From an uncultured Psychroserpens sp. (lineage in GTDB: Bacteria; Bacteroidota; Bacteroidia; Flavobacteriales; Flavobacteriaceae): a stretch of 64,000 nucleotides of DNA. The stretch lies in contig NZ_CANMVN010000003.1 in the NCBI RefSeq assembly GCF_947501425.1, forward strand, positions 186,001 through 250,000, given 5' to 3'. Below the pieces are notes generated by a model that was not told the origin of the DNA, did not search any database, and was given only the letters and a program-made list of their open reading frames with translations. The number at the start of each line of letters is the position of its first letter. Position 1 is the first letter of the stretch. Below are positions 9,891-35,635 of the stretch, piece by piece. Made by a program: the position numbers and the translations under genes.

Positions 9891-10511
9891 TTAATCCTTG
9901 ATGACTGAAATAATCTGTGGCAATAAAGATATAGCTGTAAGTAATACTGCATTATTATTTTTAGAGCCTTCAGAGGCAGTAACAACCGGTTTAGCAGTTG
10001 TTACATCAGATCTGGCAATCATAGTCTTGGGGTTTCTTATCATGACAACAGTGCTTAGAACATCTTCCTCTGCCTGCTCCTTTGCGTAATTGTAAGCCAA
10101 TTCTATACCATCTTTATGCAACTCTTTGATACTACTAGGTTTCAAATGCTCGACAACGTACATGATCTCTTTCAAATCTTTTGAAGAGGTTTTCTTAAGG
10201 GCTATTCCGTTAAAACCTGAGTATGTAATAATAGAAATATTGTCTGTAGCAACCAAACGCTTAGATACTAAATTCAAAGCTTGTTTCAAAATCACTTTGT
10301 CTTCAGCTATGAGTTCACTAACTGGTGTTTGTATCAAAAAAATATAGTGCTCATTATCATACTCCAGATCTTCATCTTTGTTTTCAATAGCATCTACAAT
10401 AAATGAGATCAAATTATTAATCGATACTGATTTCGTTTCAACATTCATGTCCTGTGCAGTTGCTAAATAACTCATTAGCAACACTACTACTAGTGTGATT
10501 GGATTTTTCAT
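9891..10511 (-). CDS. Secreted vWA-like protein with a degenerate metal site
   Basis: 206 residues with signal peptide MKNPITLVVVLLMSYLATAQ. The middle follows the von Willebrand A plan: a hydrophobic strand YIFLIQ, then TPVSEL where DxSxS is expected, then an amphipathic helix, ISIITYSG, and the SSIKELHKDGIELAYNYAKEQ helix typical of vWA domains of TonB-linked or Bat proteins. The MIDAS aspartate is missing, so metal binding is doubtful. A C-terminal hydrophobic stretch (VLLTAISLLPQIISVI) may anchor it. Assignment is by motif order only; the function is unknown. Confidence 0.55.
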   Translation of the reverse strand: MKNPITLVVVLLMSYLATAQDMNVETKSVSINNLISFIVDAIENKDEDLEYDNEHYIFLIQTPVSELIAEDKVILKQALNLVSKRLVATDNISIITYSGFNGIALKKTSSKDLKEIMYVVEHLKPSSIKELHKDGIELAYNYAKEQAEEDVLSTVVMIRNPKTMIARSDVTTAKPVVTASEGSKNNNAVLLTAISLLPQIISVIKD

Positions 10512-28669: not shown

Positions 28670-29305
28670 ATGAATTCTACAGAAAAGGAAATTTCTTATA
28701 CCATTACCAATAGTTATTCTACATTAAACACCTTGACATCTGAGACTAAAAATATTTGGTTTGTATGTCATGGCATGGGGTATTTGAGTCGTTATTTTCT
28801 CAAGTATTTTAGAGGGTTAGACCCAAAAGAAAACTACATTATTGCACCTCAAGCTCAAAGCAAATATTACATCTCACCTCAATTTAAACATGTTGGAGCA
28901 AGCTGGTTAACACGAGAAAACATACTAATGGAAACCGAAAATGTAATGAGGTATTATGACTCAATTTTTGAGCATGAGCAAATTTCCGAAGTTAAGAACC
29001 TTATTGTTTTAGGCTATTCGCAAGGTGTTAGTGTAGCTATGCGTTATGTGTCTAAACGCCAGATCCAATGCTCGCAACTCATCTTGCATTCTGGTGGAAT
29101 TCCAAAAGAGCTTTCAGCAAAAGATTTTGAATTTTTTAATGCTAAGGCTACACTCATTTATGGCACAAACGATGAATATCTCGATGACGCACGAATGGAA
29201 CAAGAATCTAAAAAAGCGAGAGAGTTATTCAATGACAAATTAGAAATTATTCCTTTTGAAGGCGTCCATGAGGTCAATGTTGAATTAATACATAATCTTA
29301 TTTAA
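28670..29305 (+). CDS. Alpha/beta hydrolase (carboxylesterase/phospholipase type)
   Basis: 211 residues, no signal peptide. The oxyanion region is FVCHGMG, the nucleophile elbow GYSQG, the acid lies in YGTNDEYLDD and the histidine in GVHEVN, so the triad is complete. It is shaped like cytosolic esterases of the phospholipase/carboxylesterase group. It is divergent from the menI-menF unit, with 40 bases between them. No classical menH is visible in the window; this could stand in for it, but the motifs are not specific for MenH. Confidence 0.78.
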   Translation: MNSTEKEISYTITNSYSTLNTLTSETKNIWFVCHGMGYLSRYFLKYFRGLDPKENYIIAPQAQSKYYISPQFKHVGASWLTRENILMETENVMRYYDSIFEHEQISEVKNLIVLGYSQGVSVAMRYVSKRQIQCSQLILHSGGIPKELSAKDFEFFNAKATLIYGTNDEYLDDARMEQESKKARELFNDKLEIIPFEGVHEVNVELIHNLI

Positions 29306-29374: not shown

Positions 29375-32300
29375 TCACTTTTTATTTGATGACACAATTT
29401 TCTTAAGCACGCTGCCACGATTTGTAGTAACACGAACAAATAGAATTTGGTCTTTTATATTAGATAAGTTAAACTGAGATTTACCTTCTGTATTTTTGAT
29501 ATAACCTTTAATCGTTACATCTTCTAATACCATTCCTCTGATATCCATAATTTGAATAGATACATCTGAATCAAAATCTAACTCATAAGCAATATTCACT
29601 ATATCTTTAAATGGTACAGGATATGCTTTGAAGTCAAAAGAATTATCAATCATATCTGTTATTCTATCTTTTTCACCTTCGTATTCAGTTTGCACACATA
29701 CTTCAACATCAGCATAAGCAATTAAGTAGAAATCATCTAAACAGCCATTTTGTAATACACTATTCACCGGAATAGTAATAGTAGCTGTATTACCATCATC
29801 TGAAAAACTAGAGTACGCATATTCATTAGGATCTGTGGTCTTTACACAGACTCTCCTTTCTTTAGTGGTCATTTTTCGATTACCAGTTGATGTATCTTCA
29901 CATGGAAAAGCTTCACAATCTAAATGCACATTTACATTACCTAATTCGAAATCGAAATCATCAGATAGCGAGTCGTCAACTTCGTAGGTCACAATAATGT
30001 CATTACCTTCTCTTACTAAGGTCACAGAACCGACTAACATTGCTAGAGAGTCTTCATCTGTAGGATCACAATCATTATCAGAATCTACATAAAGATCAAA
30101 CGAATAGGTATTATAATTTCCAAATTGATCTTGTGTCTCAAGGTCTAAACCACCATTGGTCCATCCCCAATCATTCTCGTACAACTGATCTGAATCTAAG
30201 AAACACCATTCGTAATCGCCTCCTGGATCTGGTGCATAAGCATAGGCATCTTCATCAACGCAACAATCTACTATTTCTACTTTGAATTTGATTCCTACTT
30301 CACAACCAGTACCAATTCCGTAAGTATAAGTTAAACCGTGAACACCTTCTCCCAGAACAGTAGGATCAAAACTATAAATACCTTTATCATCTATTACTCC
30401 TGGTCCTGAATATACTCCACCCTCTGGCTGACCACCAAATAGTGGCACATTACCGCCTTGGAGACATATGATCTCTAATGTAGGGTGTGATATTTCAATA
30501 TGTTTCTCATTAAGGATTAATGTAGCATTATATTGACAACCATTAGAATCGTAGAGACTTAATGTAATAGGAGAATCAAATACATCATAAGTAACACCAT
30601 TTAAAGGCCATGTATACGTATCACCAGGACAAACCTCAGCTTCAACAACGATATCTTCAACTTCAGGATATTCATTAATAATCAATGTTGCAGTGTAAGG
30701 GCAGCCGTTATCGTCCAGTAAGTCTAGTACTACCGGAGAATCTGCTGCACTATAGCGTATATCTGTACCTGCCAAATCCCAAGTGTATAGAGTTCCGTAA
30801 CATATAGTTACAGTTTCCTCAACATCTGGTGTCACTGGATAGGCAGTGACAGTTAGCACTGTTTTGTACGGACAGCCATTAATGTCAGTTCTGGAAATAT
30901 CATACATTCCTACACCATATTCAATACCTTCGTAGTTATACGTTTCACCTTCACAAACTTCACCTGAAGCAGTATCGTCTGGTGTTACTGGATAAGCGGT
31001 AACTGTTAATACTGTTTTATACGGACAACCATTAGCATCTACTCGTGGAATGTCATAAGAGCCAACAGCATACTCGTTGCCTTCGTAATTATATGTTTCA
31101 CCTTCACAAACTTCGCCTGAAGCGGTATCATCTGGTGTTACTGGATAGGCAGTAACGGTTAATACTGTTTTATACGGACAACCATTAGCATCTACTCGTG
31201 GAATGTCATAAGATCCAACAGCATACTCGTTGCCTTCGTAGGTATACGTTTCACCTTCACAAACTTCACCTGAAGCGGTATCGTCTGGAGTTACTGGATA
31301 GTTATTTACCGTAACTGTTGACGACACTTCCGGACATGAGCCTGAAGCCAGGAATGTATAAGTATACACATTCCCTACTGGTCCGCTCCAAATTCCGCCG
31401 CCATCTGCATTTCCGCCTAAGGCATTAAATAATTCATTATCTGTTGGTGTCACACCTTCGCAAACGGTTAATGTTCCATTTTCTCCTGGATCTGGTGCAT
31501 CATCTTCTGAAATCGTTAAAGTCGCAGTATATGGACAGCCATTACTATCTGTTAAATTTAGGATCACTGGTGAATCTGCTATGGTGTATGAATTGTTATC
31601 TACTGACCATAGATATGAATCACCTTCACAAACCGTAACATCTGTAATAATATCTGGTGTCACAGGATATGCTGAAACCGTCAACACTGTAGTGTATGGA
31701 CAACCATTAGCATCTACTTTTGGAATATCATAAGATCCAACTTCGTATTCCATTCCTTCATAAGTGAATTTATCACCTTCACAAACTTCGCCTGAAGCGG
31801 TATCATCTGGTGTTACTGGATAGGCAGTAACGGTTAATACTGTTTTATACGGACAACCATTAGCATCTACTCGTGGAATATCATAAGAGCCAACTGCATA
31901 CTCGTTGCCTTCGTAGTTATACGTTTCACCTTCACAAACGTCTCCTGAGGCTGTATCGTCTGGAGTTACTGGATAAGCAGTAACGGTTAATACTGTTTTA
32001 TACGGACAACCATTGCCATCTATTCTCGGAATATCATAAGAGCCAACAGCATACTCGTTGCCTTCGTAGTTATATGTTTCTCCTTCACAAACTTCGCCTG
32101 AAGCTGTATCATCTGGTGTTACTGGATAAGCGGTTACGGTTAGTACTGTTTTATACGGACAACCATTAGCATCTACTCGTGGAATGTCATAAGAGCCAAC
32201 AGCATACTCGTTGCCTTCGTAATTATATGTTTCACCTTCACAAACGTCTCCTGAAGCGGTATCGTCTGGTGTTACTGGATAGGCGGTAACGGTCAACACC

Positions 32301-34744
32301 GTTTTATACGGACAACCATTAGCATCTACTCGTGGAATGTCATAAGATCCAACAGCATACTCGTTGCCTTCATACGTGTAAGTCTCCCCTTCACAGACTT
32401 CGCCTGAAGCCGTATCGTCTGGTGTGACTGGATAAGCAGTAACGGTTAATACTGTTTTATACGAACAACCATTGCCATCAACTCTTGGAATATCATAAGA
32501 GCCAACAGCATACTCGTTGCCTTCGTAGTTATATGTCTCTCCTTCACAAACTTCACCTGAAGCGGTATCGTCTGGTGCCACTGGATAAGCGGTAACGGTT
32601 AATACTGTTTTATACGAACAACCATTGCCATCTACTCGTGGAATATCATAAGAGCCAACGGCATACTCGTTGCCTTCGTAGGTATACGTTTCACCTTCAC
32701 AAACTTCACCTGTAGCAATATCATCTGGTGTCACTGGATAGGCAGTTACTGTTAATACTGTTTTATACGGACAACCATTGCCATCTATTCTCGGAATATC
32801 ATAAGATCCAACAGCATACTCGTTGCCTTCGTAGTTATATGTTTCTCCTTCACAAACTTCGCCTGAAGCGGTATCGTCTGGTGTCACTGGATAAGCGGTA
32901 ACGGTTAATACTGTTTTATACGGACAACCATTGCCATCTATTCTCGGAATATCATAAGAGCCAACAGCATACTCGTTGCCTTCGTAGGTATACGTTTCAC
33001 CTTCACAAACTTCACCTGAAGCGGTATCGTCTGGAGTTACTGGATAGTTATTTACCGTAACTGTTGACGACACTTCCGGACATGAGCCTGAAGCCAGGAA
33101 TGTATAAGTATACACATTACCTACTGGTCCGCTCCAAATTCCGCCGCCATCTGCATTTCCGCCTAAGGCATTAAATAATTCATTATCTGTTGGTGTCACA
33201 CCTTCGCAAACGGTTAATGTTCCATTTTCTCCTGCATCTGGTGCATCATCTTCTGAAATCGTTAAAGTCGCAGTATATGGACAGCCATTACTATCTGTTA
33301 AATTTAGGATCACTGGTGAATCTGCTATGGTGTATGAATTGTTATCTACTGACCATAGATATGAATCACCTTCACAAACCGTAACATCTGTAATAATATC
33401 TGGTGTCACAGGATATGCTGAAACCGTCAACACTGTAGTGTATGGACAACCATTAGCATCTACTTTTGGAATATCATAAGATCCAACTTCGTATTCCATT
33501 CCTTCATAAGTGAATTTATCACCTTCACAAACTTCGCCTGAAGCGGTATCGTCTGGTGTGATATTATATTCAGTAATAGTTAGTGTAGCTGTATAAGGAC
33601 AATCATTGATGTCAGTTAAGTTTAAAACTACCGGAGAATCTGTTGCTGTATAGGTATTACCATCTACTGACCAAAAATATGAATCGCCAGAGCACACCTC
33701 AGCACTGTCATTTATATCATTAGTACCAGGCGGAGGACTTACTCCAGATACATTACCAGTACATTGGGTAGGATTCAGCGGGTCTTCACAACCAGTAGAG
33801 GGAATAACAGGAGTAATATCAATATTGAAATCAGTACCTTGATTATAAGTTAAAGTAAAAGAGCCAGATAGAGCTCCTCCACCCAAATTCCCTAGACATA
33901 CGTCACTTGAAATAGATAATGCGTTTGGATCTGTAGCACTATATTGACCATTAGCTCCATTAATTGGAACTGTTACAGAATAAGTTCCATTTGATACACA
34001 AGATACTAATGGATCTTCAACATTAAGTGAGCAGATTACTACATCACTATCTCCGCATCCAAATCTTGCCTTAAAATTGTTTATAGCTAAATCACCATCG
34101 GCATCTTGATCCCATACTGCTAAATACATATTTGCAGGTTCTAAAAAATCTTCTCCTTCAATAGGTATAGTATTCCATGTACTTGAACTTTCAACACCAC
34201 AGGCTATACGTTTAAGATCGCCACAATCTCCACTTAACTCTTGTCCATTAGCCGCCAAAGTAGTTCCTGCTTGATGAACATTTGAAGAATATAAAACCCA
34301 TGCAATGTTGTCACCAGAATTGTCATTTATCTGAATTTCAAAACTTCCTGCAAATGCCCTAACATCAAAATTTAACCAAATAATAGGTTCTCCATTTGTC
34401 GGGTTTAAAGGAAATACTGTTGTTTGGGTACTTGGATCTACACATGGTATCCCAGAAATATCAATTTCAAATTGTGTAGCATCATAAACAGAATTATTAT
34501 AAGGCATGATCTGAGATTGTGTCTCAGCAGAACTTCCACATCTAATAATACCGTTTGGAAATGCAGCATTAGGTGCGTCATCAATTGATCCACCTGGAAG
34601 CCATGTAGAGCCTTGAGTCCATCGCTGCGCACCTTCACAAGGTGTGTCATTTTGAGCAAAAGATAAATGGAAGCCAAATAGAAGTACGACCAGAAACGAT
34701 ACTCTTTTGAATACGATTTTTGGAGAAATAGCAAAGATGTTCAT
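29375..34744 (-). CDS. Giant repeat-containing surface protein with T9SS sorting domain
   Basis: 1789 residues. A signal peptide (ending LSFAQ) is followed by a non-repetitive N-terminal part of about 390 residues with paired cysteines. Then come thirteen 51-residue repeats (YPVTPDDTASGEVCEGETY to NGCPYKTVLTVTA) interrupted twice by an identical-type 123-residue module, three more diverged repeats, a Cys-rich segment, and a C-terminal T9SS type A domain (KAYPVPFKDIVNIAYEL to VLKKIVSSNK). The sorting domain sends proteins across the outer membrane. Each repeat has two cysteines (VCEG, NGCPY). A role in adhesion or gliding on surfaces is inferred from architecture. It is transcribed alone with a terminator 37 bases downstream. 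Confidence 0.88.
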   Translation of the reverse strand: MNIFAISPKIVFKRVSFLVVLLFGFHLSFAQNDTPCEGAQRWTQGSTWLPGGSIDDAPNAAFPNGIIRCGSSAETQSQIMPYNNSVYDATQFEIDISGIPCVDPSTQTTVFPLNPTNGEPIIWLNFDVRAFAGSFEIQINDNSGDNIAWVLYSSNVHQAGTTLAANGQELSGDCGDLKRIACGVESSSTWNTIPIEGEDFLEPANMYLAVWDQDADGDLAINNFKARFGCGDSDVVICSLNVEDPLVSCVSNGTYSVTVPINGANGQYSATDPNALSISSDVCLGNLGGGALSGSFTLTYNQGTDFNIDITPVIPSTGCEDPLNPTQCTGNVSGVSPPPGTNDINDSAEVCSGDSYFWSVDGNTYTATDSPVVLNLTDINDCPYTATLTITEYNITPDDTASGEVCEGDKFTYEGMEYEVGSYDIPKVDANGCPYTTVLTVSAYPVTPDIITDVTVCEGDSYLWSVDNNSYTIADSPVILNLTDSNGCPYTATLTISEDDAPDAGENGTLTVCEGVTPTDNELFNALGGNADGGGIWSGPVGNVYTYTFLASGSCPEVSSTVTVNNYPVTPDDTASGEVCEGETYTYEGNEYAVGSYDIPRIDGNGCPYKTVLTVTAYPVTPDDTASGEVCEGETYNYEGNEYAVGSYDIPRIDGNGCPYKTVLTVTAYPVTPDDIATGEVCEGETYTYEGNEYAVGSYDIPRVDGNGCSYKTVLTVTAYPVAPDDTASGEVCEGETYNYEGNEYAVGSYDIPRVDGNGCSYKTVLTVTAYPVTPDDTASGEVCEGETYTYEGNEYAVGSYDIPRVDANGCPYKTVLTVTAYPVTPDDTASGDVCEGETYNYEGNEYAVGSYDIPRVDANGCPYKTVLTVTAYPVTPDDTASGEVCEGETYNYEGNEYAVGSYDIPRIDGNGCPYKTVLTVTAYPVTPDDTASGDVCEGETYNYEGNEYAVGSYDIPRVDANGCPYKTVLTVTAYPVTPDDTASGEVCEGDKFTYEGMEYEVGSYDIPKVDANGCPYTTVLTVSAYPVTPDIITDVTVCEGDSYLWSVDNNSYTIADSPVILNLTDSNGCPYTATLTISEDDAPDPGENGTLTVCEGVTPTDNELFNALGGNADGGGIWSGPVGNVYTYTFLASGSCPEVSSTVTVNNYPVTPDDTASGEVCEGETYTYEGNEYAVGSYDIPRVDANGCPYKTVLTVTAYPVTPDDTASGEVCEGETYNYEGNEYAVGSYDIPRVDANGCPYKTVLTVTAYPVTPDDTASGEVCEGETYNYEGIEYGVGMYDISRTDINGCPYKTVLTVTAYPVTPDVEETVTICYGTLYTWDLAGTDIRYSAADSPVVLDLLDDNGCPYTATLIINEYPEVEDIVVEAEVCPGDTYTWPLNGVTYDVFDSPITLSLYDSNGCQYNATLILNEKHIEISHPTLEIICLQGGNVPLFGGQPEGGVYSGPGVIDDKGIYSFDPTVLGEGVHGLTYTYGIGTGCEVGIKFKVEIVDCCVDEDAYAYAPDPGGDYEWCFLDSDQLYENDWGWTNGGLDLETQDQFGNYNTYSFDLYVDSDNDCDPTDEDSLAMLVGSVTLVREGNDIIVTYEVDDSLSDDFDFELGNVNVHLDCEAFPCEDTSTGNRKMTTKERRVCVKTTDPNEYAYSSFSDDGNTATITIPVNSVLQNGCLDDFYLIAYADVEVCVQTEYEGEKDRITDMIDNSFDFKAYPVPFKDIVNIAYELDFDSDVSIQIMDIRGMVLEDVTIKGYIKNTEGKSQFNLSNIKDQILFVRVTTNRGSVLKKIVSSNKK
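31215..31804 (-). repeat. 590-bp internal duplication, copy A
   Basis: By eye this segment matches 32961-33550 at an offset of 1746 bases with only two mismatches (one in the sequence around 31374, one near 31492 changing Gly to Ala). It covers the 123-residue module and parts of both flanking repeats. The flanking repeats outside the block are visibly less similar. Confidence 0.85.
32961..33550 (-). repeat. 590-bp internal duplication, copy B
   Basis: Partner of 31215-31804 (see that entry). The match begins after a mismatch at 32960 and ends before one at 33551. Near identity over 590 bases within a repeat field that is otherwise diverged points to recent duplication or gene conversion. 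Confidence 0.85.
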
Positions 34745-35059: not shown

Positions 35060-35635
35060 ATGAATATGAACCCTACTCTTGAAAATAAACGCGTAAGATT
35101 AAGTCCGCTTACACTTAATAATTACCAAAATCTCATTGATATAGCGCAAGAAAAAGATCTCATCTACTACTCTCCTAGCGATATTTCAACTTCGGAAAAT
35201 TTAAAAGCCTATGTAGAGATTGCTTTGGAAGGCTATGAACAAAAAACAATCATTCCTTTTATTATATATGACAAGGACAAACAGAAATATGCAGGAAGCA
35301 CACGTTTTGGATTGATTCATTGGAAAAATAAAGTCCTTCATATTGGTTGGACTTGGATTGGACATGAATTTCAAGCTACAGGACTTAACACACACATGAA
35401 ATTTTTAATGCTCCAATATGCCTTTGAAACCTTAGAATTTGAAAAAGTGGAATTTAGAATTGACCAGCGTAATCTAAAGTCTAGAAAAGCCGTTGAAAAA
35501 TTAGGCGCTACACTTGAAGGCATTCTGCGACAAGATACACTTATGAAAGATGGATTTCGACGAAATACCTGTTGTTATGGGATTTTAAAACCTGAGTGGG
35601 AGACAATTAAAGTCAGTCTCATGAACAAACTATAA
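35060..35635 (+). CDS. GNAT N-acetyltransferase (RimJ/RimL type)
   Basis: 191 residues. It begins LENKRVRLSPLTLNNYQNL, as in RimJ/RimL-like enzymes. The acetyl-CoA segment is WTWIGHEFQATGLNTHMKFLMLQYAFE, and FRIDQRNLKSRKAVEKLGATLEGILRQ is the hallmark C-terminal stretch. Substrates range from ribosomal protein N-termini to small molecules and cannot be told here. The stop overlaps the convergent lipoprotein gene by six bases. Confidence 0.87.
   Translation: MNMNPTLENKRVRLSPLTLNNYQNLIDIAQEKDLIYYSPSDISTSENLKAYVEIALEGYEQKTIIPFIIYDKDKQKYAGSTRFGLIHWKNKVLHIGWTWIGHEFQATGLNTHMKFLMLQYAFETLEFEKVEFRIDQRNLKSRKAVEKLGATLEGILRQDTLMKDGFRRNTCCYGILKPEWETIKVSLMNKL

Follow-up and report, generated by a model that had tools for sequence, protein, structure and literature searches.

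A putative type IX-exported stalk protein of Psychroserpens with a nearly identical 590-nt duplicate and species-by-species evolution of its repeats

We analysed a stretch of 64,000 nt (the window) from a Psychroserpens genome that is available as a 3.70-Mb draft in 40 contigs. On the minus strand of the window, an ORF at positions 29375–34744 encodes a modular repeat protein of 1,789 aa. Two plus-strand genes were used as flank markers, a hydrolase-like gene of 211 aa on the downstream side (28670–29305) and a GNAT-like acetyltransferase gene of 191 aa on the upstream side (35060–35635). A scan for promoters and terminators gave no more sites than were found in shuffled sequences, and a plasmid origin was rejected, similar DNA being absent from PLSDB.

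All parts of the protein are encoded on the minus strand. A Sec-type signal peptide ending in ...FHLSFAQ (34652–34744), read by eye from the sequence, is followed by an N-terminal beta domain of ~310 aa (33710–34651; hereafter the N-domain), which was defined with a 23-sequence alignment and an AlphaFold2 model. The stalk then runs through an N-terminal edge unit of 55 aa, a W-type relative of the repeat (33533–33697), the 51-aa unit B1 (33380–33532), the first copy of a 123-aa module composed of a W unit of 56 aa and a G unit of 67 aa (33011–33379; aa 456–578), the eight 51-aa units A1–A8 (31787–33010), the 51-aa unit B2 (31634–31786), the second module copy (31265–31633; aa 1038–1160), the units A9–A11 (30806–31264), the last of which is a divergent edge unit, and two C-terminal W-type edge units of 57 and 55 aa (30470–30805). 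A type IX secretion system (T9SS) type A sorting domain (PF18962, Por_Secre_tail) lies at aa 1708–1784 (29393–29623). The thirteen 51-residue repeats (eleven A units, B1 and B2) and two 123-residue modules of the preliminary description were recovered by counting in this ORF, and its coordinates were exact to the single base. The repeat field that it drew at 30842–33568 was correctly placed but too short, as divergent unit relatives of 55–57 aa, the edge units listed above, adjoin both ends.

The sorting tail scored 33.1 bits against a Pfam cut-off of 27, and 20.1 bits with TIGR04183, just below its cut-off of 23. It was the only credible match among the Pfam and NCBIfam hits to the protein and its modules; those to Antistasin, LRR_10 and IL17R were rejected as composition or cysteine artefacts of short stretches. 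The same genome encodes the T9SS translocon SprA (two SprA_N matches in one ORF of 2,483 aa, E = 4e-132) and ~80 further proteins that end in this tail. Judged from its tail and architecture, the protein is probably displayed on the surface, and its sequence looks like that of a modular stalk which reaches the surface by type IX secretion, with a leader, the N-domain, the repeat stalk and the sorting tail. The most similar C-terminal end in the same genome (45% over 100 residues; G000:C2:146999-147298) belongs to a second very long ORF of 3,509 aa, which may encode a companion surface protein.

The model of the repeat units consisted of confident all-beta domains (pLDDT 88.9), at a pTM of 0.47 that is too low to fix the overall shape. 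The residues C2, G4, Y14, C29, Y31 and L35 were invariant across the aligned units; a rod shape and an intradomain disulfide between C2 and C29 of the units are predicted. In a Foldseek search with the stalk, the grappling-hook protein GhpA supplied the only strong matches to solved structures, three fragments of its neck/shaft (best E = 6e-8, probability 1.00), and the next hit outside GhpA had an E-value of 2e-3. The TM-score between the stalk and GhpA was 0.34 over the multi-domain chain, such low global values arising because both chains have many domains. A PDB sequence search with the whole protein returned no chain at E ≤ 10, and a search with four profiles returned nothing credible, the profiles A3, A4 and A5 finding no GhpA chain. 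We read these matches as a stalk-domain fold shared by the stalk and the GhpA neck, which does not imply that this protein is a hook.

This likeness bears on a different reading of the protein, namely a secreted and released product for matrix or predation that is related to the Aureispira grappling hook, and not a cell-attached adhesin. Type A proteins of the T9SS are not always retained, and a type A tail could release the protein into the medium; the stalk fold is also closest to the GhpA fragments. However, neither GhpA nor any other PDB chain was matched by sequence at the above threshold, and the fold hits listed for the N-domain contained no GhpA match. We regard a released product as unlikely.

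The N-domain had no accepted Pfam match. Its AlphaFold2 model was all-beta (pLDDT 85, pTM 0.77), and fold searching was abandoned as a guide to its function: it gave only generic beta sandwiches, and their TM-scores were low. Relatives were found at 23 loci, mostly in scattered Bacteroidota, and those within the genus were from P. algicola Dm15, P. sp. SPM9 and two uncultured isolates. Elsewhere in the Bacteroidota, distant relatives are joined to stalks built from SprB, HYR, Ig or cadherin-like domains, mostly with the same sorting tail. A profile search for the N-domain across the order found it in its own genome only. A contig binned as Polyangia (Myxococcota; L040) contained an N-domain at 58% identity and a coverage of 0.8, and is probably a mis-binned Bacteroidota contig. 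A tip role of the N-domain in ligand binding is putative, the domain matching no known binding family.

Within the stalk, a block of 590 nt at 32961–33550, the N-terminal copy in the protein, recurs at 31215–31804 with an offset of 1746 nt. As the preliminary description had it, the copies differ at two positions, which we located at 31373/33119 (GGG/GGT, synonymous) and 31489/33235 (CCA/GCA, giving Pro1086/Ala504). B1 and B2 are identical over their 153 nt, and the module copies, at least 99.4% identical in DNA, contain both differences. The other units do differ more, as had also been stated: pairwise differences among the ten standard A units were 4–27 per 153 nt (median 9.2%; DNA identity 82–97%). 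At the median A-unit divergence, 590 nt would carry no more than two differences with a probability of ~5e-22, and at the smallest divergence seen with one of ~2e-5; the block is thus much younger than the diversity within the A array.

The boundaries of the block point to how it was copied. Unit A9 is a chimera, identical to A1 over nt 1–50 with a breakpoint exactly at the block end, and beyond nt 50 it has 11 differences from A1 but only 2 from A8. The opposite end of the block falls in a linker that is common to the units. Such a chimera is harder to explain by one simple tandem duplication than by ectopic gene conversion or a pair of unequal crossovers. In this scheme the copied segment, made up of B1, the module and nt 1–50 of A1, would have entered at a junction where near-identical A units meet; both of its ends would lie in homologous sequence, the trace expected from one ectopic conversion or two unequal crossovers, and the block would be the youngest event visible in the window. 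A Sawyer-type permutation test on the ten standard A units gave P = 0.0015, indicating recombination among them in the form of a non-random mosaic and rejecting independent divergence. The recent duplication or gene conversion proposed from the first reading is therefore supported by the near-identical blocks, the A9 chimera and this test.

A single plain tandem duplication of 1,746 bp, comprising B-W-G and eight A units and followed by point mutation, would account for an offset that is a sum of whole units (828 + 6 × 153) and for the near identity of B-W-G at both sites. It predicts, however, that A9 should resemble A1 throughout, whereas A9 past nt 50 is closer to A8, and the second array holds just three A units; we find this scenario quite unlikely. 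Another concern is that the short-read assembly created the duplicate, through a contig path that was mis-joined or duplicated. The sequence is a draft in 40 contigs, and the assemblies of two related species (G007 and G008) end inside the repeats of the orthologous gene. Against this, two sites distinguish the copies, the reading frame is kept, A9 is specifically an A1/A8 chimera, and repeated blocks with the same unit order are seen independently in two other species. The two differences and the chimeric in-frame junction make a pure artefact unlikely for the duplication, although draft assemblies may miscount repeats and the exact number of A units given here can be wrong.

Repeat proteins were found at the same locus, beside the 211-residue hydrolase-like gene, in seven other Psychroserpens genomes. 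As one genome per species was compared, the variation in number described here is variation between species. The complete genes with 51-residue units had 11, 20, 15 and 18 units, against 13 in the present gene, and the number of central modules per gene was 1–3; the orthologues in G007 and G008 stop at contig ends within the repeats. A block of 276 aa (828 bp) with the order unit-unit-W-G was tandemly repeated in two other species. Stalk length seems to change quickly between species, and variation among strains of one species, as expected in the preliminary description, is a prediction. In a profile search across the order, the unit was found in three of 148 genomes, one of them its own, and was thus nearly confined to the genus in this sample. 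Other arrangements were also seen. At the same locus in G016 (L026 1-2413), a different stalk of many ~26-residue units of the type CYETATFN..TCQWDVTGDQP was joined to a related C-terminal end, and two other genera of the family had arrays of ~20 units consisting of 67-residue G-unit relatives alone (G025:C6:753647-758860 and G035:C18:259536-265107).

When the DNA of 25 modules was placed in a tree, central modules grouped by species with a support of at least 97% (the two of the present gene and three each of G011, G009 and G010), and the two of the present gene were each other's nearest relatives (support 100/100), while the C-terminal modules mostly paired by position across species. All ten standard A units of the present gene fell into one clade of the unit tree and, in agreement, distances placed the nearest relative within the same species for 86 of 98 units. 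This is the textbook pattern left by unequal exchange within a repeat array: the centres are homogenised and the edges stay orthologous. On the evidence of these trees, the stalk is a classic case of concerted evolution, remodelled and re-homogenised species by species. The A units were under purifying selection (mean dN 0.026, dS 0.42, dN/dS 0.061), but that unit similarity is maintained by selection on the protein and not by recombination is hardly credible, since protein selection leaves the near identity of silent sites within species unexplained (block copies 0.3–4% apart in DNA) and the DNA trees cluster by species.

The gene has also been lost in a sister species and may have been exchanged in part. 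In most members of the genus that lack it, the hydrolase-like and acetyltransferase genes are directly adjacent. Between the flank genes of G004 (L051 5535-6189), a close sister of G007 (support 100/100), in which the gene is present, short pieces of the leader, the N-domain and the C-terminal end remain, with stops. As this gap holds only remnants, the gene was deleted there, and at least one empty site represents a loss. That one clade gained the gene just once was also considered; the small two-gene tree was too weak to decide on it.

The N-domains of P. algicola and SPM9 were 99.0–100% identical, against 81–90% over the 1.2 kb before the gene. Along L028/L029, from about position 10000, the repeat gene's start codon marks a step in the identity of the two, from ~87% before it to 99.5% after it, and on the downstream side the identity drops to about 71%. 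Read from these identities, the pair is a recombination mosaic centred on the repeat gene, and the far greater likeness of the N-domains than of the flanks suggests a recent transfer of the N-domain part between species. At the same locus in G009 (L018) and G008 (L022), a von Willebrand A-like start (DVILILDESNSI) takes the place of the N-domain, with the same type of stalk behind it. The C-terminal end is related in these two genomes with another N-terminus and in G016 with another repeat.

Taken together, we propose a T9SS-exported stalk that holds the N-domain out and whose rod is remodelled by recombination, a reading to which we give a probability of roughly 0.7. The C-terminal tail would serve export and attachment, and the small two-cysteine beta domains would form a rod that spaces the N-terminal beta domain, the probable binding tip, away from the cell. 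In their DNA, the units of the rod would stay similar enough to recombine with one another by homology, so that ectopic gene conversion and unequal crossing-over would continually gain, lose and homogenise units, at the two scales of the single 153-bp unit and the larger 828-bp unit-unit-W-G block.

The locus provides a natural case of concerted evolution within one bacterial gene, in which eight species have repeat proteins at one site, the orthologous edge units serve as controls, and both a very recent conversion and a deletion relic can be seen. The analysis also names a tip domain that has no model in the family libraries searched and is present on many large sorted repeat proteins, and connects a so far undescribed stalk domain of flavobacteria with the fold of the neck in the Aureispira grappling hook. 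That all of this amounts to an undescribed class of Bacteroidota stalks, with a conserved tip, interchangeable stalks, exchange between species, a stalk fold shared with GhpA and a role in cell contact such as capture or predation, is a long shot.

Among known systems, GhpA of Aureispira sp. CCB-QB (PDB 9flp, 9flv and 9fls) resembles the present protein as the best structural match of the stalk and in being secreted by the T9SS. It differs in its ~20% identity, with no detectable sequence homology, and Aureispira is another kind of bacterium. According to a review (PMC11205867), its hook protein is both T9SS-secreted and heptameric; the present protein is described from its sequence and single-chain models. 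The gliding adhesin SprB and other SprB-repeat proteins (PF13573) are likewise large T9SS-exported flavobacterial repeat proteins. A Pfam scan of the whole protein found no SprB repeat, which is present in some distant relatives of the N-domain. CmbA of Limosilactobacillus reuteri is likewise an adhesin with a large tandem repeat inside its gene, of 8 or 11 copies depending on the strain, which misled earlier assemblies (PMC13339910), but L. reuteri is Gram-positive, and CmbA is cell-wall anchored and has identical units of ~290 bp. A survey reported 124 fibrillar adhesin-like proteins with Por_Secre_tail in Bacteroidetes (PMC8286594), which share stalk repeats and the sorting tail with the present protein. 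Unlike in that survey, the stalk unit and N-domain here are without an accepted Pfam model, and a Pfam-based screen could therefore not flag this protein as adhesive.

A further parallel is with the Periscope Proteins (SasG, Aap, Rib and Sgo_0707 among others; PMC8201768, PMC9704523), in which highly similar tandem folded domains form a stalk between an N-terminal functional domain, here perhaps the uncharacterised N-domain, and a C-terminal anchor, here probably the sorting tail. One of their features, highly identical tandem repeat domains in one chain, is present with 13 units. A change in length through homologous recombination has been proposed for them (PMC8201768, PMC9704523). The differences are that export here is by the T9SS and not by sortase anchoring or inverse autotransport, that the units are 3–18% apart in DNA and accompanied by a second, larger repeat period, and that the variation here is between species, a change of length within a population being what defines their class. 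A term search of the main text of PMC8201768 and PMC9704523 found no mention of Bacteroidota, and the locus points to a length-varying periscope-type stalk that uses the type IX system, outside the groups by which the periscope class was defined. By analogy, the protein would work like a periscope-type fibrillar adhesin, without being a proven member, and represents a known principle built from new parts.
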